NCBI RefSeq assembly: GCF_024436055.1
Contig: NZ_JANFNH010000020.1
Coordinates: forward strand, 1-64,000
Reading direction: 5' to 3'
DNA length: 64,000 nt
Source of the DNA: Streptantibioticus rubrisoli
GTDB taxonomy: Bacteria > Actinomycetota > Actinomycetes > Streptomycetales > Streptomycetaceae
Shown here piece after piece: positions 13,294 to 21,320 of this stretch. How positions within the stretch are numbered: position 1 is the first letter of the stretch; each line of letters begins with the position of its first letter. Below the pieces are notes generated by a model, which saw nothing but the letters and a program-made list of their open reading frames with translations, did no database searches and was not told the origin of the DNA. A program made the translations under genes and the position numbers.

Positions 13294-13707
13294 TCAGCCG
13301 CCCCAGCTCTCGATCGTGCCGCCCTGGGGCTTGACGGCACATGATGTGGTGCCGGGCGCGACGCTGGGAGTCGAGGTGGTGCGGGCCGACAGTCGGGGGG
13401 AGAGGCGAGGGTTGGCGCGGGCTGATGCGACCGCCGCCGCTGCGGGCTGCGGAAGCACGCCGATCGTCGTCCCTCCAAGGCCGAAGCAACCGCTCGGGGC
13501 TGTGGCGGGCGTGGCCTCAGCGGCGACGGAGGCGGCTGTGAGGCGAAGGCTTCTCAAGGGGTTCTCCAGCCAGTGCGGGCTGATTTCACCAGTAGGTTCG
13601 ACGAGTCCTGCCGGTTCCGGCCAGCGCGCCCGCAGGTACGGGAATCCGGCAGGCGGCCGTGCCGGGTGGTCTCCGTTGTGCGGGAGGCGCGTCGGTGTCG
13701 GGATCAT
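13294..13707 (-). CDS. Hypothetical protein (137 aa), translationally coupled
   Basis: Begins MIPTPTRLPHNGDHPARP. It has an Ala/Pro/Thr-rich middle (LTAASVAAEATPATAPSG, then VLPQPAAAAVASARA) and ends TTSCAVKPQGGTIESWGG. Its ATG overlaps the stop of the upstream membrane-protein gene (ATGA), and the next gene starts four bases after its stop, which supports it being real. No recognised domain. The single Cys in the conserved-looking tail could be redox- or metal-related, but that is a guess. Confidence 0.55.
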   Translation of the reverse strand: MIPTPTRLPHNGDHPARPPAGFPYLRARWPEPAGLVEPTGEISPHWLENPLRSLRLTAASVAAEATPATAPSGCFGLGGTTIGVLPQPAAAAVASARANPRLSPRLSARTTSTPSVAPGTTSCAVKPQGGTIESWGG

Positions 13708-14162
13708 CTGTCGGGTGCCGTGATGTAGGGCTCGGGTCGCACCCGGCTGGTCCCGTCGCGGTGCGGCCGGGTGCGGCGGTGTCGCCGGACCTCTGATGCC
13801 TGCCAGGCTGCGACGATCAGCAGGGTGAGCGTCTCGGCGATGAGGCTGAGCAGGGCCTGGGGGGCGGGCTGTAGGCCGCGTTCGGAGAATCCGAACAATC
13901 CGATGGTGCGGGATGTGGCGAACCCGGCGAGCGCCCCGACGGCGATCGCGGCGGCGGCGATTCGCAGGAGCAGGGGTGCCGCCCACAGCAGGAGTGCGGC
14001 CACCGCGAAGGCGGCGCTGGCCTGAAGCAGGAACAACGGGCCGATGACTTGGATGAAGCGGTATCCGGCGACGTAGAGCTGGGCGTGGATGTATCCGCTT
14101 GCCGCGAGCGTGGCGGCAAGCACGAGGCGCAGTGCGAGGGCGCGCAGGCTCCGGGTGCTCAT
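13704..14162 (-). CDS. Four-helix membrane protein (module A)
   Basis: A 152-residue membrane protein with four hydrophobic helices, starting MSTRSLRALALRLVLAATLA and containing GYIHAQLYVAGYRFIQVIGP, where His, Gln and Tyr sit at the first helix end. Near-identical architecture and motifs (SGYIHAQLYLAGYRFIHVVG) occur in the module B protein 20320-20745, so these are paralogues. ATGA overlaps occur at both ends, with the phosphoesterase upstream and the 137-aa gene downstream. Function unknown; association with cupredoxins in both modules suggests a partner in an envelope redox or copper process. Confidence 0.75.
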   Translation of the reverse strand: MSTRSLRALALRLVLAATLAASGYIHAQLYVAGYRFIQVIGPLFLLQASAAFAVAALLLWAAPLLLRIAAAAIAVGALAGFATSRTIGLFGFSERGLQPAPQALLSLIAETLTLLIVAAWQASEVRRHRRTRPHRDGTSRVRPEPYITAPDR

Positions 14163-15109
14163 ACGAGTTTCTCGTCCTTGACGGCCAGCGCGTGGCTGCC
14201 CTGCCGGTAGTTGACGGTGCGGATGCCGAGTGCGTCCTTGAGGCGCCCGGCGGGCAGCACCTGTGGAATGGGGCCGGGGCCCTGGCCGGGTTTGGGAAAC
14301 GGGTAGCAGGTGGGTGCGGCCGCATGGAAGGTGATGTTGCCCTCGGTCTTGGTGAACAGCTGGTGGACGTGCCCGTTGAGGCACGTGACCGAGGAGAAGC
14401 GGCGCAACATCGACAGCACCTGCACCGCGTCGTCGGTGCCCCAGCCCCACTTCGGATACATCGCGAACAACGGGATGTGACTGAAGATGACGATGGGGGT
14501 GTCCGACGACAGACCGGCGATGTCCTTGCGCACGAAGTCGATCTGGTCGTTGCCCAGGTGGCCCAGTTGCTCCAGATGCAGAGTGTTGACCAGCGCGATG
14601 AAGTGCACACCGTGGGTGTCGAAGCTGTACCAGCCGTCGCCGAGGGTGTTTTTGGCGAAGGTCTGTCGGTAAGCGACTCCGTTGTCTCCGATCGAGTCGT
14701 GCTCGCCCGGCACGGTGAAGACCCGGTCCGTGCGCACCTGCGACAGCATCTGCTTGACCTGGTCGAACTGCGCGGGCGTGGACAGGTGTGTCAGGTCGCC
14801 GCTGTGCATGACGAAGTCAGGCCGGAAGCCGAGGGAGTTGACCTGGTTGAGCGCTGAGGCGAACGTCCCGGCGACGTCCATGTTGGGCGGGCCCTGGAAG
14901 CCGATGTGGCTGTCGGAGACCTGCACGAACCGCAGGTCTGCGCTGCCTGCCGGGGGCGCGTCCGACGAGCCGGGGAGATGGCTGATCACCTCTCCTCCGG
15001 TGACTGTCAGGACCACGGCACCACCGAACCAGGCGGAGTGCCGCATGAGCTGGCGGCGGGTCATGCCGTGTTCGCCGTCGCCGTTGGAGTCGTGTGTGGG
15101 CCGGGTCAT
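14159..15109 (-). CDS. Tat-exported calcineurin-like metallophosphoesterase
   Basis: A 316-residue enzyme. MTRRQLMRHSAWFGGAVVLT is a twin-arginine signal. The metallophosphoesterase motifs follow in order: VSDSHIGF (DxH), HSGDLTH (GD), VPGEHDS (the GNH position carries GEHD), FSHIPLF and NGHVHQ (GHxH). These residues bind two metal ions in the family. It probably hydrolyses a phosphodiester or phosphomonoester outside the membrane. Start ATG at 15109 overlaps the cupredoxin stop (ATGA). In module B this gene is missing, apart from a possible N-terminal trace at 20746-20850. The Glu in place of Asn in the third motif is notable and may alter activity. Confidence 0.85.
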   Translation of the reverse strand: MTRPTHDSNGDGEHGMTRRQLMRHSAWFGGAVVLTVTGGEVISHLPGSSDAPPAGSADLRFVQVSDSHIGFQGPPNMDVAGTFASALNQVNSLGFRPDFVMHSGDLTHLSTPAQFDQVKQMLSQVRTDRVFTVPGEHDSIGDNGVAYRQTFAKNTLGDGWYSFDTHGVHFIALVNTLHLEQLGHLGNDQIDFVRKDIAGLSSDTPIVIFSHIPLFAMYPKWGWGTDDAVQVLSMLRRFSSVTCLNGHVHQLFTKTEGNITFHAAAPTCYPFPKPGQGPGPIPQVLPAGRLKDALGIRTVNYRQGSHALAVKDEKLV

Positions 15110-15621
15110 GGGGTCACCTCCACGGTGGCGGTCATGAACGGGTGGATGGTGCAGTAGTAGGCGTAGGTGCCGGGTTTGGTGAACGTGTAGCTGTAGGTGG
15201 CTTTGGTGGCCAGACCCGGTGACTTCAGCGGCCCGCCCGATCCCTGCTTGCTGGTGACGGTGTGAGTGTCGGGGTCGGTGTTGGTCCAGGTCACCTTCGT
15301 GCCCACCTTGACCGTCATTTTGGCCGGGGAGAACGCGAAGTTCTTGATCGTCACCGCGTTGGGGGCAGCCGGAGCGGTCGGCTGGCCGCTGGTGGGTGAG
15401 GTCGAGGGGGTGGCTGCTGGTGGGGTGACCGTGCCACCCGTTCCGGAGGCACCAGGCATTCCCGGCAGGGTCTGGCTGGGTCCGGGACTCAGCGCGCCGA
15501 CGGGTTTGGGGTGTGACGATCCGCCGCACGCGCTGAGCAGTCCCAGTGCTCCGGCAACGGCGACAGCGGCCAAGCACGCCGTACGCGACCGCCGGAGCGG
15601 CGAAGAGGAGTTCGCATTCAT
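15106..15621 (-). CDS. Cupredoxin lipoprotein (module A)
   Basis: A 171-residue lipoprotein. Lipobox LLSACGG follows the hydrophobic segment TACLAAVAVAGALGL; a Pro/Ser/Thr-rich linker then leads to a plastocyanin/azurin-like domain (VTIKNFAFSPAKMTVKVGTK, then VTWTNTDPDTHTVTS). Copper ligands are visible: His in DTHTV and Cys, His, Met in YYCTIHPFM, the type 1 set. Likely electron carrier or copper-binding protein anchored outside the membrane. First gene of a five-gene run with overlapping stops and starts. Start at 15621 is supported by GAAGGA upstream. Paralogue: 20847-21320. Confidence 0.88.
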   Translation of the reverse strand: MNANSSSPLRRSRTACLAAVAVAGALGLLSACGGSSHPKPVGALSPGPSQTLPGMPGASGTGGTVTPPAATPSTSPTSGQPTAPAAPNAVTIKNFAFSPAKMTVKVGTKVTWTNTDPDTHTVTSKQGSGGPLKSPGLATKATYSYTFTKPGTYAYYCTIHPFMTATVEVTP

Positions 15622-15714
15622 GGCCCTCGTTCCTTCTACGCGTCCCCAGCCGCACGGGCGGGTGTGATCCAAGACCGATGGGGGATCGTTCTTCTCAGGC
15701 AGACAGGCGACCGC

Positions 15715-16272: not shown

Positions 16273-18072
16273 CTAGCCGACGACGCGGACCGCCCTGAGG
16301 TACGGGGCCTCGTCCTGGCCTCCTGACGTGGGCGGTGTCGCAGGGAGCCGGACCGTGCGGGTCGCCACGTCCAGCAGCGCCGGGCGGTGCGTGGTCATGA
16401 CCACCGTCCGGCCGGCGACCAGTCGCTGAAGGGCGCCGATCACCAGCTGCTCGGCGTCCGCGTCGAGACCGGACGTCGGTTCGTCCAGCAGCACGATGGG
16501 CGCGTCGGCGAGCAGCGCGCGGGCGATCGCCACCCGCTGGCGCTGACCACCCGACAGTCCGGTCCCGCGGTCACCGACCCGGGTGGCGAGACCGTCCGGA
16601 AGGTGCTGCGCGAAGTCGGTGACGAGCGCGGCCCGGGCCGCCACGGCCACATCGGCGTCGTCGGCGTCCGGTCGGGCATAGCGGATGTTCTCGGCCAGCG
16701 TGCCGGGGAACAAATACGTGTCCTGTAGTACGACCGCGACCTGCCGGTGCAGCCAGGGCTCCGGGAGTTCGGTGGTCGCTCGGCCGTCGATGGCCACCGA
16801 ACCGAGGGTGGGCGGATACAGGCCCGCGATCAGAGCGAGCGAGGTGGACTTGCCCGCGCCGTTCGGGCCGGCCAGCGCGACCCGTTCGCCGGGCAGCACG
16901 GTCAGGTCCAGCCCGCGCAGCGCGAGCCGGGACCCGTAGGCCATCGAGACGCACCGGAAGTCGATCCGGCCAGCCGTTCGAACGGGCAGCCCCGCCTCGC
17001 TCCGCGCCGGGCTGCGCGGCTCGTCCAGGATGCCCAGGATGCGCTCGCCGGAGGCCTGGCCCTGGGCGAAGGTGACGGAGAGACGGGAGAGTGATTTGAT
17101 CGGCGAGACCATGCTGTTGAGGTAGCTCACCGCCACCACCAGCTGGCCGATGCTCCACCAGTGGTTCAGTACCCCCGATCCGCCGATCCACAGCAGCAGC
17201 GCGGTGCCGCCCGCCGTCGCCAGCTCCAGCAACGGCACCCGGAGCGCCTGCACTCGGGTCGTCGCCAGCCCGGCCTGCAGGGCGCCCTCGCTCTCCACGG
17301 CGAAGCGGTGGTCGTGCAGGTCCTGGCGGCCGAAGGAGTGCACGGTGCGGATGCCGTGCAGGGTTTCGGTGACCAGCGTGGCGAGCCGGCCCTCGGCCTC
17401 GCGTTCACGGCGTGCCGCCCGGTGGCCGAGCCTGCGGTTGTGCGACCCGATGACGTAGACGAGTGGGATACAGCCGATGCCGATCAGGCCGAACCGCCAG
17501 TCCAGCCACAGCAGTGCGATGGCGAAGCTGCCGGCCGAGAGCATGCCGGGCAGGAGCGTCGCGAACAGGGCGACCAGGCTGTCCTTGATGCGGGCGCAGT
17601 CGGTGATGATCCGGCTGGTCGACTCGCCCACGGCCTGTCGGTCGTGATAGCTCATCGGCAGTCGTTGCAGATGTCCGTAGGCGTCCGCGCGGATCGCCAC
17701 GCTCATTCGTTCGCCGACGCCGTTCATCACGCGGTCGCCGGCGTAGTCGAACGCGCCGGAGACGGCGGCGGTTACCACCACCGCCCCGGCCGCGGTGGCG
17801 AGCATCGTCGCTTTTCCGGTGCCGAAGACGCCGATCAGGTGGGTGAGCGGATTGTGCGCGGAGGCTGCACCGAGGACCCGGTCGACCACGGCGGCGATCG
17901 GCCACGGCGCCGCGAGGTCGGCGGCCATCTCGCAGATCCGCAGGCCCAGGCCGAGGCAGAACATGCCTAGGTACGGCAGGCCGTAGCCGCGGAACCGCCA
18001 CAGCACCTGCCCCTGGTCCGCGCTCCGTATGCCCCGGTTGCCGGTCACGGCCGGATCGCCGCCCCCGGCCAC
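16273..18072 (-). CDS. ABC exporter, fused membrane and ATPase domains
   Basis: A 599-residue half-transporter. Residues ~35-310 form a six-helix exporter membrane domain (YLGMFCLGLGLRICEM, then HLQRLPMSYHDRQAVGEST typical of type 1 exporters). Residues ~345-590 form the ATPase: Walker A GPNGAGKST, Q-loop VVLQDTYLFPGT, signature LSGGQRQRVAIARAL, Walker B PIVLLDEPTSGLD and the H-loop TTHRPAL. It would work as a homodimer or with a partner to export a peptide, lipid or drug. Start GTG at 18072 is preceded by AGGAGG and overlaps the metallopeptidase gene by 28 bases; a GTG at 18048 (GTGA overlap) is an alternative. It is the last gene of a three-gene coupled operon. Confidence 0.9.
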   Translation of the reverse strand: MAGGGDPAVTGNRGIRSADQGQVLWRFRGYGLPYLGMFCLGLGLRICEMAADLAAPWPIAAVVDRVLGAASAHNPLTHLIGVFGTGKATMLATAAGAVVVTAAVSGAFDYAGDRVMNGVGERMSVAIRADAYGHLQRLPMSYHDRQAVGESTSRIITDCARIKDSLVALFATLLPGMLSAGSFAIALLWLDWRFGLIGIGCIPLVYVIGSHNRRLGHRAARREREAEGRLATLVTETLHGIRTVHSFGRQDLHDHRFAVESEGALQAGLATTRVQALRVPLLELATAGGTALLLWIGGSGVLNHWWSIGQLVVAVSYLNSMVSPIKSLSRLSVTFAQGQASGERILGILDEPRSPARSEAGLPVRTAGRIDFRCVSMAYGSRLALRGLDLTVLPGERVALAGPNGAGKSTSLALIAGLYPPTLGSVAIDGRATTELPEPWLHRQVAVVLQDTYLFPGTLAENIRYARPDADDADVAVAARAALVTDFAQHLPDGLATRVGDRGTGLSGGQRQRVAIARALLADAPIVLLDEPTSGLDADAEQLVIGALQRLVAGRTVVMTTHRPALLDVATRTVRLPATPPTSGGQDEAPYLRAVRVVG

Positions 18073-19217
18073 CGTGCGGCCTCCTGCGATGCCTCAGGCA
18101 ACGGCGTCCGCGCATCCGGCGATGCGGCTCGGGTCTGCATCCGCACCCGCAGTTCCCCGTTGTCGCCGTAGGGGAGGACGCCGTGGTCGGCCATGGCGCC
18201 GGCCACGACCCGGGCGCTGGCCGGATCGGCGGCGAGGAGCTCGCGCAGCAACTCGGCGAAGAGGCTGCGACGTTGCTGTTCCTCGGCCACATCGGTCCCG
18301 CGGCTGCCGAACCGGGTCATCGCGGTGAGCAGGGTGCGGGTGATACCGGCACCGTCGGCCTGTCGTACGCGCTCGTGAGCCGTCCACAAGGCGGACGCCC
18401 ACACGGTGCCGTTGGCGTGTGCCTGGCCCCTGCCCGGGCGCAGGCAGGCGGTGGTCCAGCGAGCGGCGAGCCGCCGGCGGCGCTGGTCCCACGGCGGGAT
18501 GTTGCCGCGGTGCCAGCCGTAGATGTCGGGGGTGCCGAGGAGGACGGCGGTGAGGAAATCGGCCGTGCCCTCGTCGAGGGCGACCTTGCCGTTGTGCTGG
18601 TCCAGCGGCGGGCGCAGGCGGTTCGCCCGGAAGTCCGCGGTGTGGCGGCATATGTGGTGGCCGACCTCGTGGTAGATGATCGCCGCGTTGTGCGCGGGCG
18701 CGTGGAAGTAGCGGGAACTCCCGGGATCAGGGCGCTCGATGAAGCGGCGACCGGTGCCCAGATGGATCTCGCCCGACCGGGCCGGCGGCTCGGGCTCCGG
18801 CGGTGATGCCTCCCCCGGCAGCCGGTAGTGCCCTCCGCTCCAGGCCCGGCCCGGTACGGAGTGCGTGCCGATCCGGATGACCAGGGGCGGCAGCGGCCGG
18901 TCCAGCAGCCGGGCGGCGAGGTTCAGCACGCGGGCAGCGTGGTACGTGGTGTTGGTCACCCCGAAGCCGCGGGCCTGGTACTGGGCCTCCGGCCCGGCGA
19001 GCGGACCGCCGCCCGCCGCCGGGTCGAAGAGGTACGCGTGCTCATCCCGATCACGGAACAGGTCGCCGTCGCGCTCGTCCCGTACCGTCAGTCCGGCCAA
19101 GCTCAGCTCGGCGGGTCCGGTCACGGTGGCGTCGAGCTCGACTTCACACAGTCGTCCCGGTCCCACAGGCCGGTCTGGGCCAAGATGATGATCCATCAGG
19201 TAAGCGGTGACCCTCAT
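18045..19217 (-). CDS. HExxH metallopeptidase-like protein
   Basis: A 390-residue protein with a gluzincin zinc site: HEVGHH at 183-188 (H183, E184, H187) and a distal Glu in LDEGTADFL (E216). The preceding NTTYHAARVLN and the EGTADF motif resemble M4/M36-type peptidases, but the overall length and order do not match a family I can name. There is no signal peptide, so it may act in the cytoplasm, for example on a substrate later exported by the adjacent ABC protein. Start ATG at 19217 overlaps the preceding stop (ATGA). Alternative: a non-catalytic zinc protein, less likely given the complete motif. Confidence 0.75.
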   Translation of the reverse strand: MRVTAYLMDHHLGPDRPVGPGRLCEVELDATVTGPAELSLAGLTVRDERDGDLFRDRDEHAYLFDPAAGGGPLAGPEAQYQARGFGVTNTTYHAARVLNLAARLLDRPLPPLVIRIGTHSVPGRAWSGGHYRLPGEASPPEPEPPARSGEIHLGTGRRFIERPDPGSSRYFHAPAHNAAIIYHEVGHHICRHTADFRANRLRPPLDQHNGKVALDEGTADFLTAVLLGTPDIYGWHRGNIPPWDQRRRRLAARWTTACLRPGRGQAHANGTVWASALWTAHERVRQADGAGITRTLLTAMTRFGSRGTDVAEEQQRRSLFAELLRELLAADPASARVVAGAMADHGVLPYGDNGELRVRMQTRAASPDARTPLPEASQEAARWPGAAIRP

Positions 19218-20245
19218 ATCGCCGGGACCCTTTCGGCGAGCAGGTCCACAGCCGCGCCGCCGGCCAGCTGGGCGGGTGACAGCACCGGCAGACCGGTGGC
19301 CGCCGCCGCCTCCCGGGACGCCAGCGGGCTTGCCGTGATCAGCCCACTGACCGCCAGGACCGGCACCCCGACCGCGTAGAGCAGATCGACACCGGCGTGA
19401 GCGGCGAGAGCATCACCCACCGCGAGGACCGCCCCACGGCAGATGCCCGGCAGATGGCGGGTCAGCCGGCGCGTCTCCTCCTGCAACAGACCGTCGGCGA
19501 TCTCCAGCACGATCGCTTCGGCACCGTCGTGACCGAGCGCGTCACGCATCGCCACCATGGTCCGCAACAGCCGTTCGGGCGGATAGCCGAAGGTCGAGGA
19601 CATCCCGAAGTCGATGAAGTCCACGACATGCCGGGCACCGGCGTCGACGTAGGCCCAGCGGTCCTTGCCGCTGCCGGAGCCGGTGACCTTCGCCGCTCCG
19701 GCGGCCAGGCCCGCGTGCGTCCAGCCACTGATCAGCCCGGCCGCTGCGGTCGTCTTCCCCGAGTTCATCGATGAGCCGACGACCGCTACCGTCGGCGGTT
19801 GTGTGCCCGACCGCGACTGCGGCAGGGACGGAGGCCGCGGCCGTGCGAAGTGTTCCAGTGACAGAGCACGCCCGTGATCGTCCGTCAGCGGTCCGAGCAC
19901 ATCCAGCTCGGTCGGCGGAAGGCAGTCGGTGTGCCAGGAGACGGCGATGCCGACCACCCCGCCCGCGGTGAGCAGGTGCGCCTTCGGCTCGTGCCGGTGG
20001 TAGCCCTCGTAGACGTCGGTCGCATACCGGTTGCCACAGGCGCCCACCACCAGGTCGCCCCTGTGGAGCCGCACCCTGCGGCCGTGTGCGTCCTCCAGAT
20101 GGTCATGGGCTCCGACCCTGGTGACCTGAGTCACCACCAGATCGCCGAGGCGGAGCGGCACGGACGGTGCGCCGAGTCGGCACTGCCTCGCATCGGGCAC
20201 TGTGCGCGTGACATGGCTCCACTTGGCGGTGAACAGCTCTCTCAT
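19214..20245 (-). CDS. P-loop NTPase of DUF1611-like type
   Basis: A 343-residue protein. The N-terminal ~130 residues include a beta-rich part with HRGDLVVGACGNRYATDVYE and GYHRHEPKAHLL. The C-terminal half is a P-loop domain: GSSMNSGKTTAAAGLISGW (157-175) with the switch-like KVTGSGSGKDRWAYVDAG and EIADGLLQEETRRL. The NSGKTT motif and following layout resemble DUF1611 and MobB-like proteins. Start ATG at 20245 after AGGAG. First of three coupled genes (P-loop protein, metallopeptidase, ABC exporter), suggesting joint synthesis or processing of an exported product. Nucleotide specificity cannot be read. Confidence 0.7.
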   Translation of the reverse strand: MRELFTAKWSHVTRTVPDARQCRLGAPSVPLRLGDLVVTQVTRVGAHDHLEDAHGRRVRLHRGDLVVGACGNRYATDVYEGYHRHEPKAHLLTAGGVVGIAVSWHTDCLPPTELDVLGPLTDDHGRALSLEHFARPRPPSLPQSRSGTQPPTVAVVGSSMNSGKTTAAAGLISGWTHAGLAAGAAKVTGSGSGKDRWAYVDAGARHVVDFIDFGMSSTFGYPPERLLRTMVAMRDALGHDGAEAIVLEIADGLLQEETRRLTRHLPGICRGAVLAVGDALAAHAGVDLLYAVGVPVLAVSGLITASPLASREAAAATGLPVLSPAQLAGGAAVDLLAERVPAI

Positions 20246-20319
20246 TGCTACTCCTGGCAGGCCCTCAGCCTCGGCGGACGAGCGGCCCTTTCGTTGGGAT
20301 CTACGGAATGTTGGGATGT

Positions 20320-20745
20320 CTACGGGACGCTGGGGGCTGCGGGACGACGGCCTCGCGCGGTTGCCTGCCAGGCAGCGAGGAGCAGCAAGGTCCCGGTCTC
20401 CAGCAGGAGGCTGAGCAGGGCCTGGGGTGCAGGCGTAAGGCCGTGTTCGGTGAAGCCGAAGACACCGATCGTGCGGGAGGCGGTGAACCCGGCGAGAGCG
20501 CCGAGCGCGACGCCGGCAGCCGCGGCCCTGAGCAGCACCGGTGCTGTGAACAGCACCAGGCCGGCGACTGCGAAGGCGGCGCTCGCCTGAAGCAGGAACA
20601 GGGCGCCGACGACGTGGATGAAGCGGTACCCGGCCAGGTAGAGCTGCGCGTGGATGTAGCCGCTCCCGGCGAGCGTGGCGGCGACGGCCAGGCGTACCGG
20701 GAAGGCCGGACGTATCGCGGAGCCGAGTCTGTTGCTGGCATTCAT
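20320..20745 (-). CDS. Four-helix membrane protein (module B)
   Basis: A 141-residue paralogue of 13704-14162: SGYIHAQLYLAGYRFIHVVG and then GALFLLQASAAFAVAGLV, with SRTIGVFGFTEHGLTPAPQA shared almost word for word. The start at 20745 (MNASNRLGSAIRPAF) is chosen because GGAGGAG lies 8 bases upstream. The open frame continues further upstream to 20850, where an ATG overlaps the cupredoxin stop; that extension is treated as a separate remnant. Lies 74 bases before the P-loop operon on the same strand and may be cotranscribed with it. Confidence 0.75.
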   Translation of the reverse strand: MNASNRLGSAIRPAFPVRLAVAATLAGSGYIHAQLYLAGYRFIHVVGALFLLQASAAFAVAGLVLFTAPVLLRAAAAGVALGALAGFTASRTIGVFGFTEHGLTPAPQALLSLLLETGTLLLLAAWQATARGRRPAAPSVP

Positions 20746-20850
20746 GCGACGTTCTCCTCCGAGTCGATGCCTTGTGATGCCGTGTCCGTCAGCTGGCTTG
20801 TCGAGGTCCATGCCTGGCGCCTCGTCGTGCGTGTACGGGTACTGGTTCAT
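20746..20850 (-). pseudogene. Probable remnant of a metallophosphoesterase N terminus
   Basis: The frame begins at an ATG overlapping the cupredoxin stop (ATGA), exactly as the phosphoesterase does in module A, and encodes MNQYPYTHDEAPGMDLDKPA then DGHGITRHRL. This parallels the module A start (PTHDSNGDGEHGMTRRQL). The rest of the enzyme is missing and the frame fuses into the downstream membrane-protein gene. Probably a deletion scar; the similarity is short. Confidence 0.4.
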
Positions 20851-21320
20851 GGGGTCACCACCACGGTTGCGGTCATGAAGGGATGGATGGTGCACAGGTA
20901 GGCATAGGTGCCGGCTTTGGTGAACGTGTATCGGTAGGTGGCGCCGGTCGTCAGCGGTGCCGAGTGCAAGGGCCCGCCCGATCCGGAGCTGGTCACGGTG
21001 TGGGCGTCGGTGTCCTTGTTGGTCCAGGTCACCGTCGTACCCGCCTTGACCTTCAGGCTGGTTGGTGCGAACGCGAAGTTCTGGATCGTCACCGCGCTCC
21101 CGGCGACGGGTGCCGTTGCGGCCGGCGAGCTTGCCGGTGCGCTCATGCTGGGCATCGCCGGGGAGCTCGGGGCGGACCTCGAGGCACCGCCGGAACCAGT
21201 GGAGGAGGAATGCGGTGATGCGCCGCAGGCGCTGAGCAGCCCCAGCGTGCCCGCGGTGGCAACAGCCAGCCCAGCTGCCACCAGGGACCGTCGGGGTGAT
21301 GGAAGTGAGTTCAGGTGCAT
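20847..21320 (-). CDS. Cupredoxin lipoprotein (module B)
   Basis: A 157-residue paralogue of 15106-15621. Lipobox LLSACGA, a Ser/Ala/Pro linker with extra methionines (PAMPSMSAPA), then the cupredoxin domain VTIQNFAFAPTSLKVKAGTT with copper ligands in DAHTVTS and LCTIHPFM. The Met-rich linker could add copper binding. Located 52 bases downstream of 21373-21729 and likely transcribed from the ECF-type promoter at 21793. Confidence 0.87.
   Translation of the reverse strand: MHLNSLPSPRRSLVAAGLAVATAGTLGLLSACGASPHSSSTGSGGASRSAPSSPAMPSMSAPASSPAATAPVAGSAVTIQNFAFAPTSLKVKAGTTVTWTNKDTDAHTVTSSGSGGPLHSAPLTTGATYRYTFTKAGTYAYLCTIHPFMTATVVVTP

Follow-up and report, generated by a model that had tools for sequence, protein, structure and literature searches.

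An actinomycete operon of a BioD/DUF1611-like P-loop protein, a thermolysin-fold metallopeptidase and an ABC exporter is inherited as a unit

Introduction

What might a P-loop protein, a metallopeptidase and an ABC exporter do together when their genes overlap end to start? The question is raised by positions 16273-20245 of the window, by which we mean the whole 64,000-nucleotide stretch of DNA from the soil actinomycete Streptantibioticus rubrisoli that was analysed. The original prediction, made from the sequence, saw in these genes a coupled operon with the logic of peptide maturation and export (activate, cleave, pump), and could put no name to a matching system. Our literature search, mostly of openly accessible papers, agrees in that it found no described operon matching the trio. 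Below, we discuss how the three genes are arranged and inherited, what their products resemble, and which functions these features favour.

Results

PL (the P-loop protein), MP (the metallopeptidase) and ABC (the exporter) are encoded in that order on the minus strand, each ORF lying where the original prediction had placed it (Table 1). The four-base ATGA overlap between PL and MP is present in the sequence as described. The 28-base overlap reported for MP and ABC hinges on an upstream GTG at 18072. Another GTG lies in frame at 18048, where it overlaps the stop codon of MP as GTGA; since every ABC-bearing relative carries (A/G)TGA at this point (the frameshifted L034 was left out), we prefer this start and a four-base overlap. 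The longer overlap is probably a start-site artefact, so that both junctions may be read as four-base coupling overlaps. PL, MP and ABC are thus a single translationally coupled operon, as had been proposed, a view borne out by the overlaps and by recurrence of the trio in the same order elsewhere. In comparisons with several relatives, dN is lower than dS for all three genes; against the closest relative, dN is 0.018, 0.068 and 0.033 and dS is 0.12, 0.11 and 0.15 for PL, MP and ABC, respectively, with MP under the loosest constraint.

Table 1. Positions of the three genes, their junctions and the leader in the window, and of related clusters in other loci
Feature	Coordinates	Strand	Description
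PL	19214..20245	-	343 aa; P-loop protein, BioD/DUF1611-like; motif GSSMNSGKTT
MP	18045..19217	-	390 aa; thermolysin/M36-fold metallopeptidase
ABC	16273..18072	-	599 aa from first GTG (18072), 591 aa from GTG 18048; fused MDR/MsbA-type exporter
PL/MP stop-start overlap	19214..19217	-	ATGA, 4 bases in the sequence; same or similar in most relatives
MP stop/probable ABC start overlap	18045..18048	-	GTGA in the sequence; NTGA in ABC-bearing relatives
Leader 5' of PL	20246..20300	-	Conserved in Streptomycetaceae copies (alignments); GGAG ribosome-binding site
Pseudonocardia-type clusters	L035:9213-12613, L038:9293-11457, L040:9152-11305		MP + DUF6875 + 488-aa protein

MP genes are found in Streptomyces, Streptantibioticus, Pseudonocardia and several MAGs (Streptomycetaceae, Modestobacter, Pseudonocardia and an unclassified actinomycete), with 19 loci recovered from genome contigs in a scan by peptide patterns, a count that is a lower bound; genes in these other genomes were called with a simple codon-usage script. 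Across 16 comparable loci, in which MP is 44-87% identical to that of the window, the order PL-MP-ABC is kept with tight spacing. Pairwise protein distances correlate between PL and MP (0.950), PL and ABC (0.974) and MP and ABC (0.958; Mantel p<=0.0005). Because the order is kept in 16 loci and the distances correlate at r=0.95-0.97, the cassette is inherited as a unit, and these sequence comparisons argue solidly for co-inheritance over a chance arrangement. The concern attached to the original prediction, that the genes might not be conserved together elsewhere, falls away, as they are kept together and co-diverge. PL adjoins MP in 20 of the 22 MP loci, the exceptions being L040, which has no PL beside MP, and L037, where none was seen and which begins near a contig end.

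The distribution of the trio is sporadic, among scattered actinomycetes. With the source genome included in both counts, MP occurs in 5/61 genomes among relatives and in 2/396 genomes across the phylum, and it was not found on any plasmid record. A second full trio is present in the same genome (G000 contig C16:239000-242826, locus L042), with identities of 74/62/75% for PL/MP/ABC, and one relative, G009, holds three copies. The L042 trio adjoins a divergently transcribed FHA-ABC2 transporter, and in an actinomycete MAG an M55 D-aminopeptidase gene (L041:5945-6784) immediately precedes the trio in the same orientation. An MP-ABC fusion suggested by a 958-aa ORF in Streptomyces sp. L-9-10 (L034) was rejected: a short run of C has one C more than in three near-identical relatives, which puts the ORF out of frame, and the apparent fusion is probably a sequencing error or frameshift.

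When the 8 kb to the left and right of the trio were compared among nine divergent loci, no common flanking gene emerged; the exceptions were genes shared by close relatives, an amino-acid permease found in two loci and a single weak match. A search for short precursor ORFs likewise found no small ORF conserved upstream or downstream of the trio across distant loci, in agreement with the earlier statement that no precursor peptide lies nearby. Because distant loci have no common gene or small ORF outside the trio, nothing visibly points to a need for further genes; a precursor peptide gene that lies far away or varies strongly would be compatible with this search.

The 50-60 bases 5' of PL are conserved in alignments of Streptomycetaceae copies sited elsewhere, including loci that lack the adjacent membrane protein gene. 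As this leader is kept where the neighbouring gene is absent, the trio probably carries its own putative control region. The leader region has no match to Rfam, to a sigma-70-type promoter or to a terminator. Conserved "ORFs" in this region were rejected as genes, since they reflect conservation of the leader DNA and a one-base indel breaks the frame.

Two related modules of a cupredoxin and a small membrane protein flank the trio in the window (13707-15655 and 20323-21320); their membrane proteins and cupredoxins are paralogous, and one module includes a metallophosphoesterase-like ORF. The adjacent membrane protein gene (20323-20745) is found beside the trio in four close loci only, namely the window, L023, L024 and L025. 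The cupredoxin/membrane-protein module is whole in L023 and L025, partial in L024 and absent from the other loci, among them the second trio of the source genome. A functional link between the trio and the cupredoxin/ECF modules, with one of whose membrane proteins the original prediction had thought it possibly cotranscribed, is not supported in view of this restriction to close relatives.

MP is characterized by three motifs, HEVGHH (183-188), DEGTAD with E216 and D220, and HANGTVW with H267, in which H183, E184, H187, E216, D220 and H267 do not vary among 20 sequences. The order of the motifs fits the thermolysin arrangement of H142ExxH, E166 and H231, with H267 assigned as the His231 equivalent by motif order and not by superposed coordinates. 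The AlphaFold model (pLDDT 80.6) has a thermolysin/M36 fold spanning residues 1-384, matching M36 fungalysin 4k90 with a Z of 24.4 (rmsd 3.4, 308 residues) and M4 enzymes with a Z of about 21, at about 13-14% identity to these structural matches. No family was assigned by Pfam (E 0.1), NCBIfam or PADLOC, and the M4 and M36 Pfam profiles were unmatched. MP contains no hydrophobic signal segment (maximum 19-residue hydropathy 0.88) and, because the fold begins at residue 1, would have no propeptide; sequence and model together indicate an apparently cytosolic enzyme with neither. The earlier description of a cytoplasmic gluzincin with a complete HEVGHH...E site therefore holds, with the site residues intact and invariant and the signal segment absent. 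MP appears to represent an undescribed branch of thermolysin-fold peptidases, working without secretion or propeptide.

PL is modelled (pLDDT 88) as a beta-rich N-terminal domain (about residues 1-143) followed by a P-loop domain (about 150-338). The P-loop domain matches BioD best (Z 16.7), followed by the DUF1611 structures 2g0t (16.3) and 2obn (15.1), SRP GTPases (about 15), DgcN 7xrj (14.8) and HypB (14.7). BioD and SRP GTPases score like DUF1611, and the DUF1611_C fold match is not specific. PL has no Pfam match above cut-off, PF07755 included, with weak MobB similarity only below it, and no PADLOC match; a distant relative with an M20 partner gives a sub-threshold PF07755 match (E 1e-4). 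The original label of a DUF1611-like NTPase is therefore supported by fold (2g0t, 2obn and DgcN) but is not a call that Pfam makes for PL. Sequence profiles reach BioD very weakly, at an E of about 0.5. K164, K186, T188, G189, D195 and E248 are invariant across 32 PL family members and hint at ATP/Mg chemistry, and the invariant residues include no evident Cys/His metal-binding cluster. HMMER places K186 on the lysine of the BioD KPVASG motif, in a weak alignment (E 0.55). PDB-profile matches to arterivirus nsp4 were discarded as short chance matches to a glycine-rich stretch. PL and its relatives appear to be P-loop enzymes of a BioD/DUF1611-like family not described before.

ABC is a fused exporter, as originally described, with whole-domain Pfam matches to ABC_membrane and ABC_tran only, both in a single chain, and no C39 peptidase domain by Pfam. 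Its closest solved structures are P-gp/MsbA, and its fused TMD-NBD architecture, with Walker A at 402, LSGGQ at 506 and Walker B at 526, is of the ABCB/MsbA type. MDR-type exporters are promiscuous.

PL family members are also found in other gene settings and, by profile search, occur in 15/396 genomes of the phylum. Some loci without MP have the order PL-ABC, and three of these continue with HTTM-domain proteins, a small protein also being present in L073 and L076 and HTTM only in L074. In L073:7815-12146 and L076:3989-8415, PL, ABC, the small protein and the HTTM protein form a coupled operon, the last two members of which recall SdpA/SdpB. One known HTTM protein is SdpB, from the SDP peptide toxin system of Bacillus. 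A second setting without MP (L077-L082) is a conserved operon of a flavin-reductase-like gene, an M20 peptidase and PL, for which we found no known name. Pairing of PL with a hydrolase and/or an exporter thus recurs from one setting to another.

Pseudonocardia-type loci (P. xinjiangensis L035, P. alaniniphila L040 and the Modestobacter MAG L038) carry DUF6875 and a 488-aa protein after MP, in place of ABC, with MP either preceded by PL or on its own; P. xinjiangensis also has a full trio elsewhere in its genome (L031). A TauD-type dioxygenase gene lies intact between MP and the DUF6875/488-aa genes in L035, with remnants in L037-L039. The 488-aa protein has no Pfam match and contains EFNNSTRLGG and KPAVGKSG motifs; judged by eye, our guess is that it may be ATP-grasp-like. 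DUF6875 proteins have been reported to be tryptophan oxidases that bind heme, and one of them belongs to a biosynthetic cluster (PMC13307353), a lead towards amino-acid-derived small molecules.

Discussion

Our leading, if tentative, reading is that the trio forms a self-contained, sporadic cassette for processing and exporting a single kind of small molecule, peptide-like (amide-containing) in nature. PL, with ATP and Mg2+ (or an acyl donor, as in DgcN), would activate an amine or amino acid by carboxylation, acylation or in some other way; cytosolic MP would then cleave an amide bond in the same molecule, and the MDR-type ABC would pump the product out. The analysis establishes the conservation of the genes as a unit, their folds, intact catalytic and nucleotide-binding motifs and coupling, with no conserved precursor or flanking gene; that they have a substrate in common, what PL does chemically, which step comes first and which way ABC transports are inferred. 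The activate, cleave, pump scheme of the original prediction is thus plausible in light of the predicted folds, the motifs and the coupling, though unproven. Several features argue against it: the chemistries of the DUF1611 and BioD folds are not alike, and PL resembles both only very weakly in sequence; enzymes with a thermolysin fold mostly act on proteins, so that MP may instead serve in protein processing or in regulation; MDR-type transporters, being promiscuous, give little guide to a substrate, and transport in a single direction is an assumption; and with flanking genes that vary from locus to locus, no common pathway can be made out. A broader formulation, which we regard as possible but doubtful, is a cytosolic maturation-export system in which a thermolysin-fold peptidase acts on peptide-like metabolites together with an ATP-dependent enzyme of BioD/DUF1611-like type and an ABC dedicated to the task, a metallopeptidase counterpart of peptidase-containing ABC transporters, with a modular PL family that swaps partners (M36-like, M20 and ABC-HTTM).

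The closest rival is a self-protection (resistance) cassette, in which a peptide antibiotic or toxic dipeptide that enters the cell is broken down in the cytosol by MP, inactivated by PL through an ATP-dependent modification and removed by ABC. The sporadic distribution of the trio (5 of the 61 genomes among relatives and 2 of the 396 across the phylum), the several diverged copies per genome, the absence of a conserved biosynthetic gene beside it and the MDR/P-gp-like character of the transporter would all fit such a role. We nevertheless consider it rather unlikely, as Pseudonocardia-type loci exchange ABC for oxygenases and a further gene, which look biosynthetic, and neither PL nor MP has a PADLOC match. 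Next comes RiPP-type maturation, with MP as leader peptidase, ABC exporting the core peptide, PL modifying it and a precursor encoded elsewhere or too short or variable to detect. Coupling of a peptidase to an exporter follows peptide secretion logic, and some PL relatives without MP sit in the PL-ABC-small protein-HTTM operons, SdpB being an HTTM protein. This explanation is improbable, since no small ORF is conserved on either side of the trio, ABC lacks a C39 domain, and the small and HTTM proteins of those operons have no Sdp family match in NCBIfam.

Very unlikely, in our assessment, is that PL acts as a HypB/MobB-like metallochaperone that loads zinc into MP, with ABC serving a protease-linked stress function. 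The weak MobB similarity of PL, the presence of HypB among its fold matches (Z 14.7) and its position beside MP in 20/22 MP loci, one exception starting near a contig end, are consistent with this idea. However, PL is also present in ABC-HTTM and M20 loci that have no MP, its invariant residues form no evident Cys/His cluster, and to our knowledge zinc peptidases of the thermolysin fold need no chaperone.

Returning to the processing-and-export cassette, its wider significance lies in a PL family that turns up across Actinomycetota with varying hydrolase or exporter partners. If the trio acts on a common substrate, such operons point to peptide-like metabolites of a class probably missed by genome mining keyed to known biosynthetic enzymes. 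The cassette is small and autonomous, which makes the question directly testable genetically.

Comparison with known systems

M36 fungalysin and M4 thermolysin (clan MA(E)) share with MP the fold of the whole chain (Z 24.4 and about 21), HExxH, a glutamate in a (D/N)ExxxD-type motif and a downstream histidine in HxxGxxW. M4 and M36 peptidases are usually, though not universally, secreted with a signal peptide and propeptide, whereas MP lacks both, is ~13-14% identical to them with no Pfam match, and shares its operon with genes for a P-loop enzyme and an ABC exporter. DUF1611 proteins (DgcN 7xrj, an N-acetyltransferase that uses an acyl donor, 2g0t and 2obn) share the P-loop domain fold with PL (Z 14.8-16.3), which differs in its lack of a PF07755 match, its modelled beta-rich N-terminal domain and its operon partners. 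BioD, the dethiobiotin synthetase, is the best P-loop fold match (Z 16.7), with its KPVASG lysine on invariant K186 in a weak alignment, but PL has the extra N-terminal domain, reaches it only at a sequence E-value of 0.55 and was seen in no biotin context. Predicted structures of both proteins, as called for alongside the original prediction, thus yielded a thermolysin/M36 fold for MP and a BioD/DUF1611-type P-loop domain (Z 16.7/16.3) for PL. PCATs and RiPP exporters, like the trio, couple a peptidase to a fused ABC exporter; the trio, with no precursor found beside it, differs in having a separate zinc peptidase in place of a fused C39 cysteine peptidase and in adding a P-loop enzyme.
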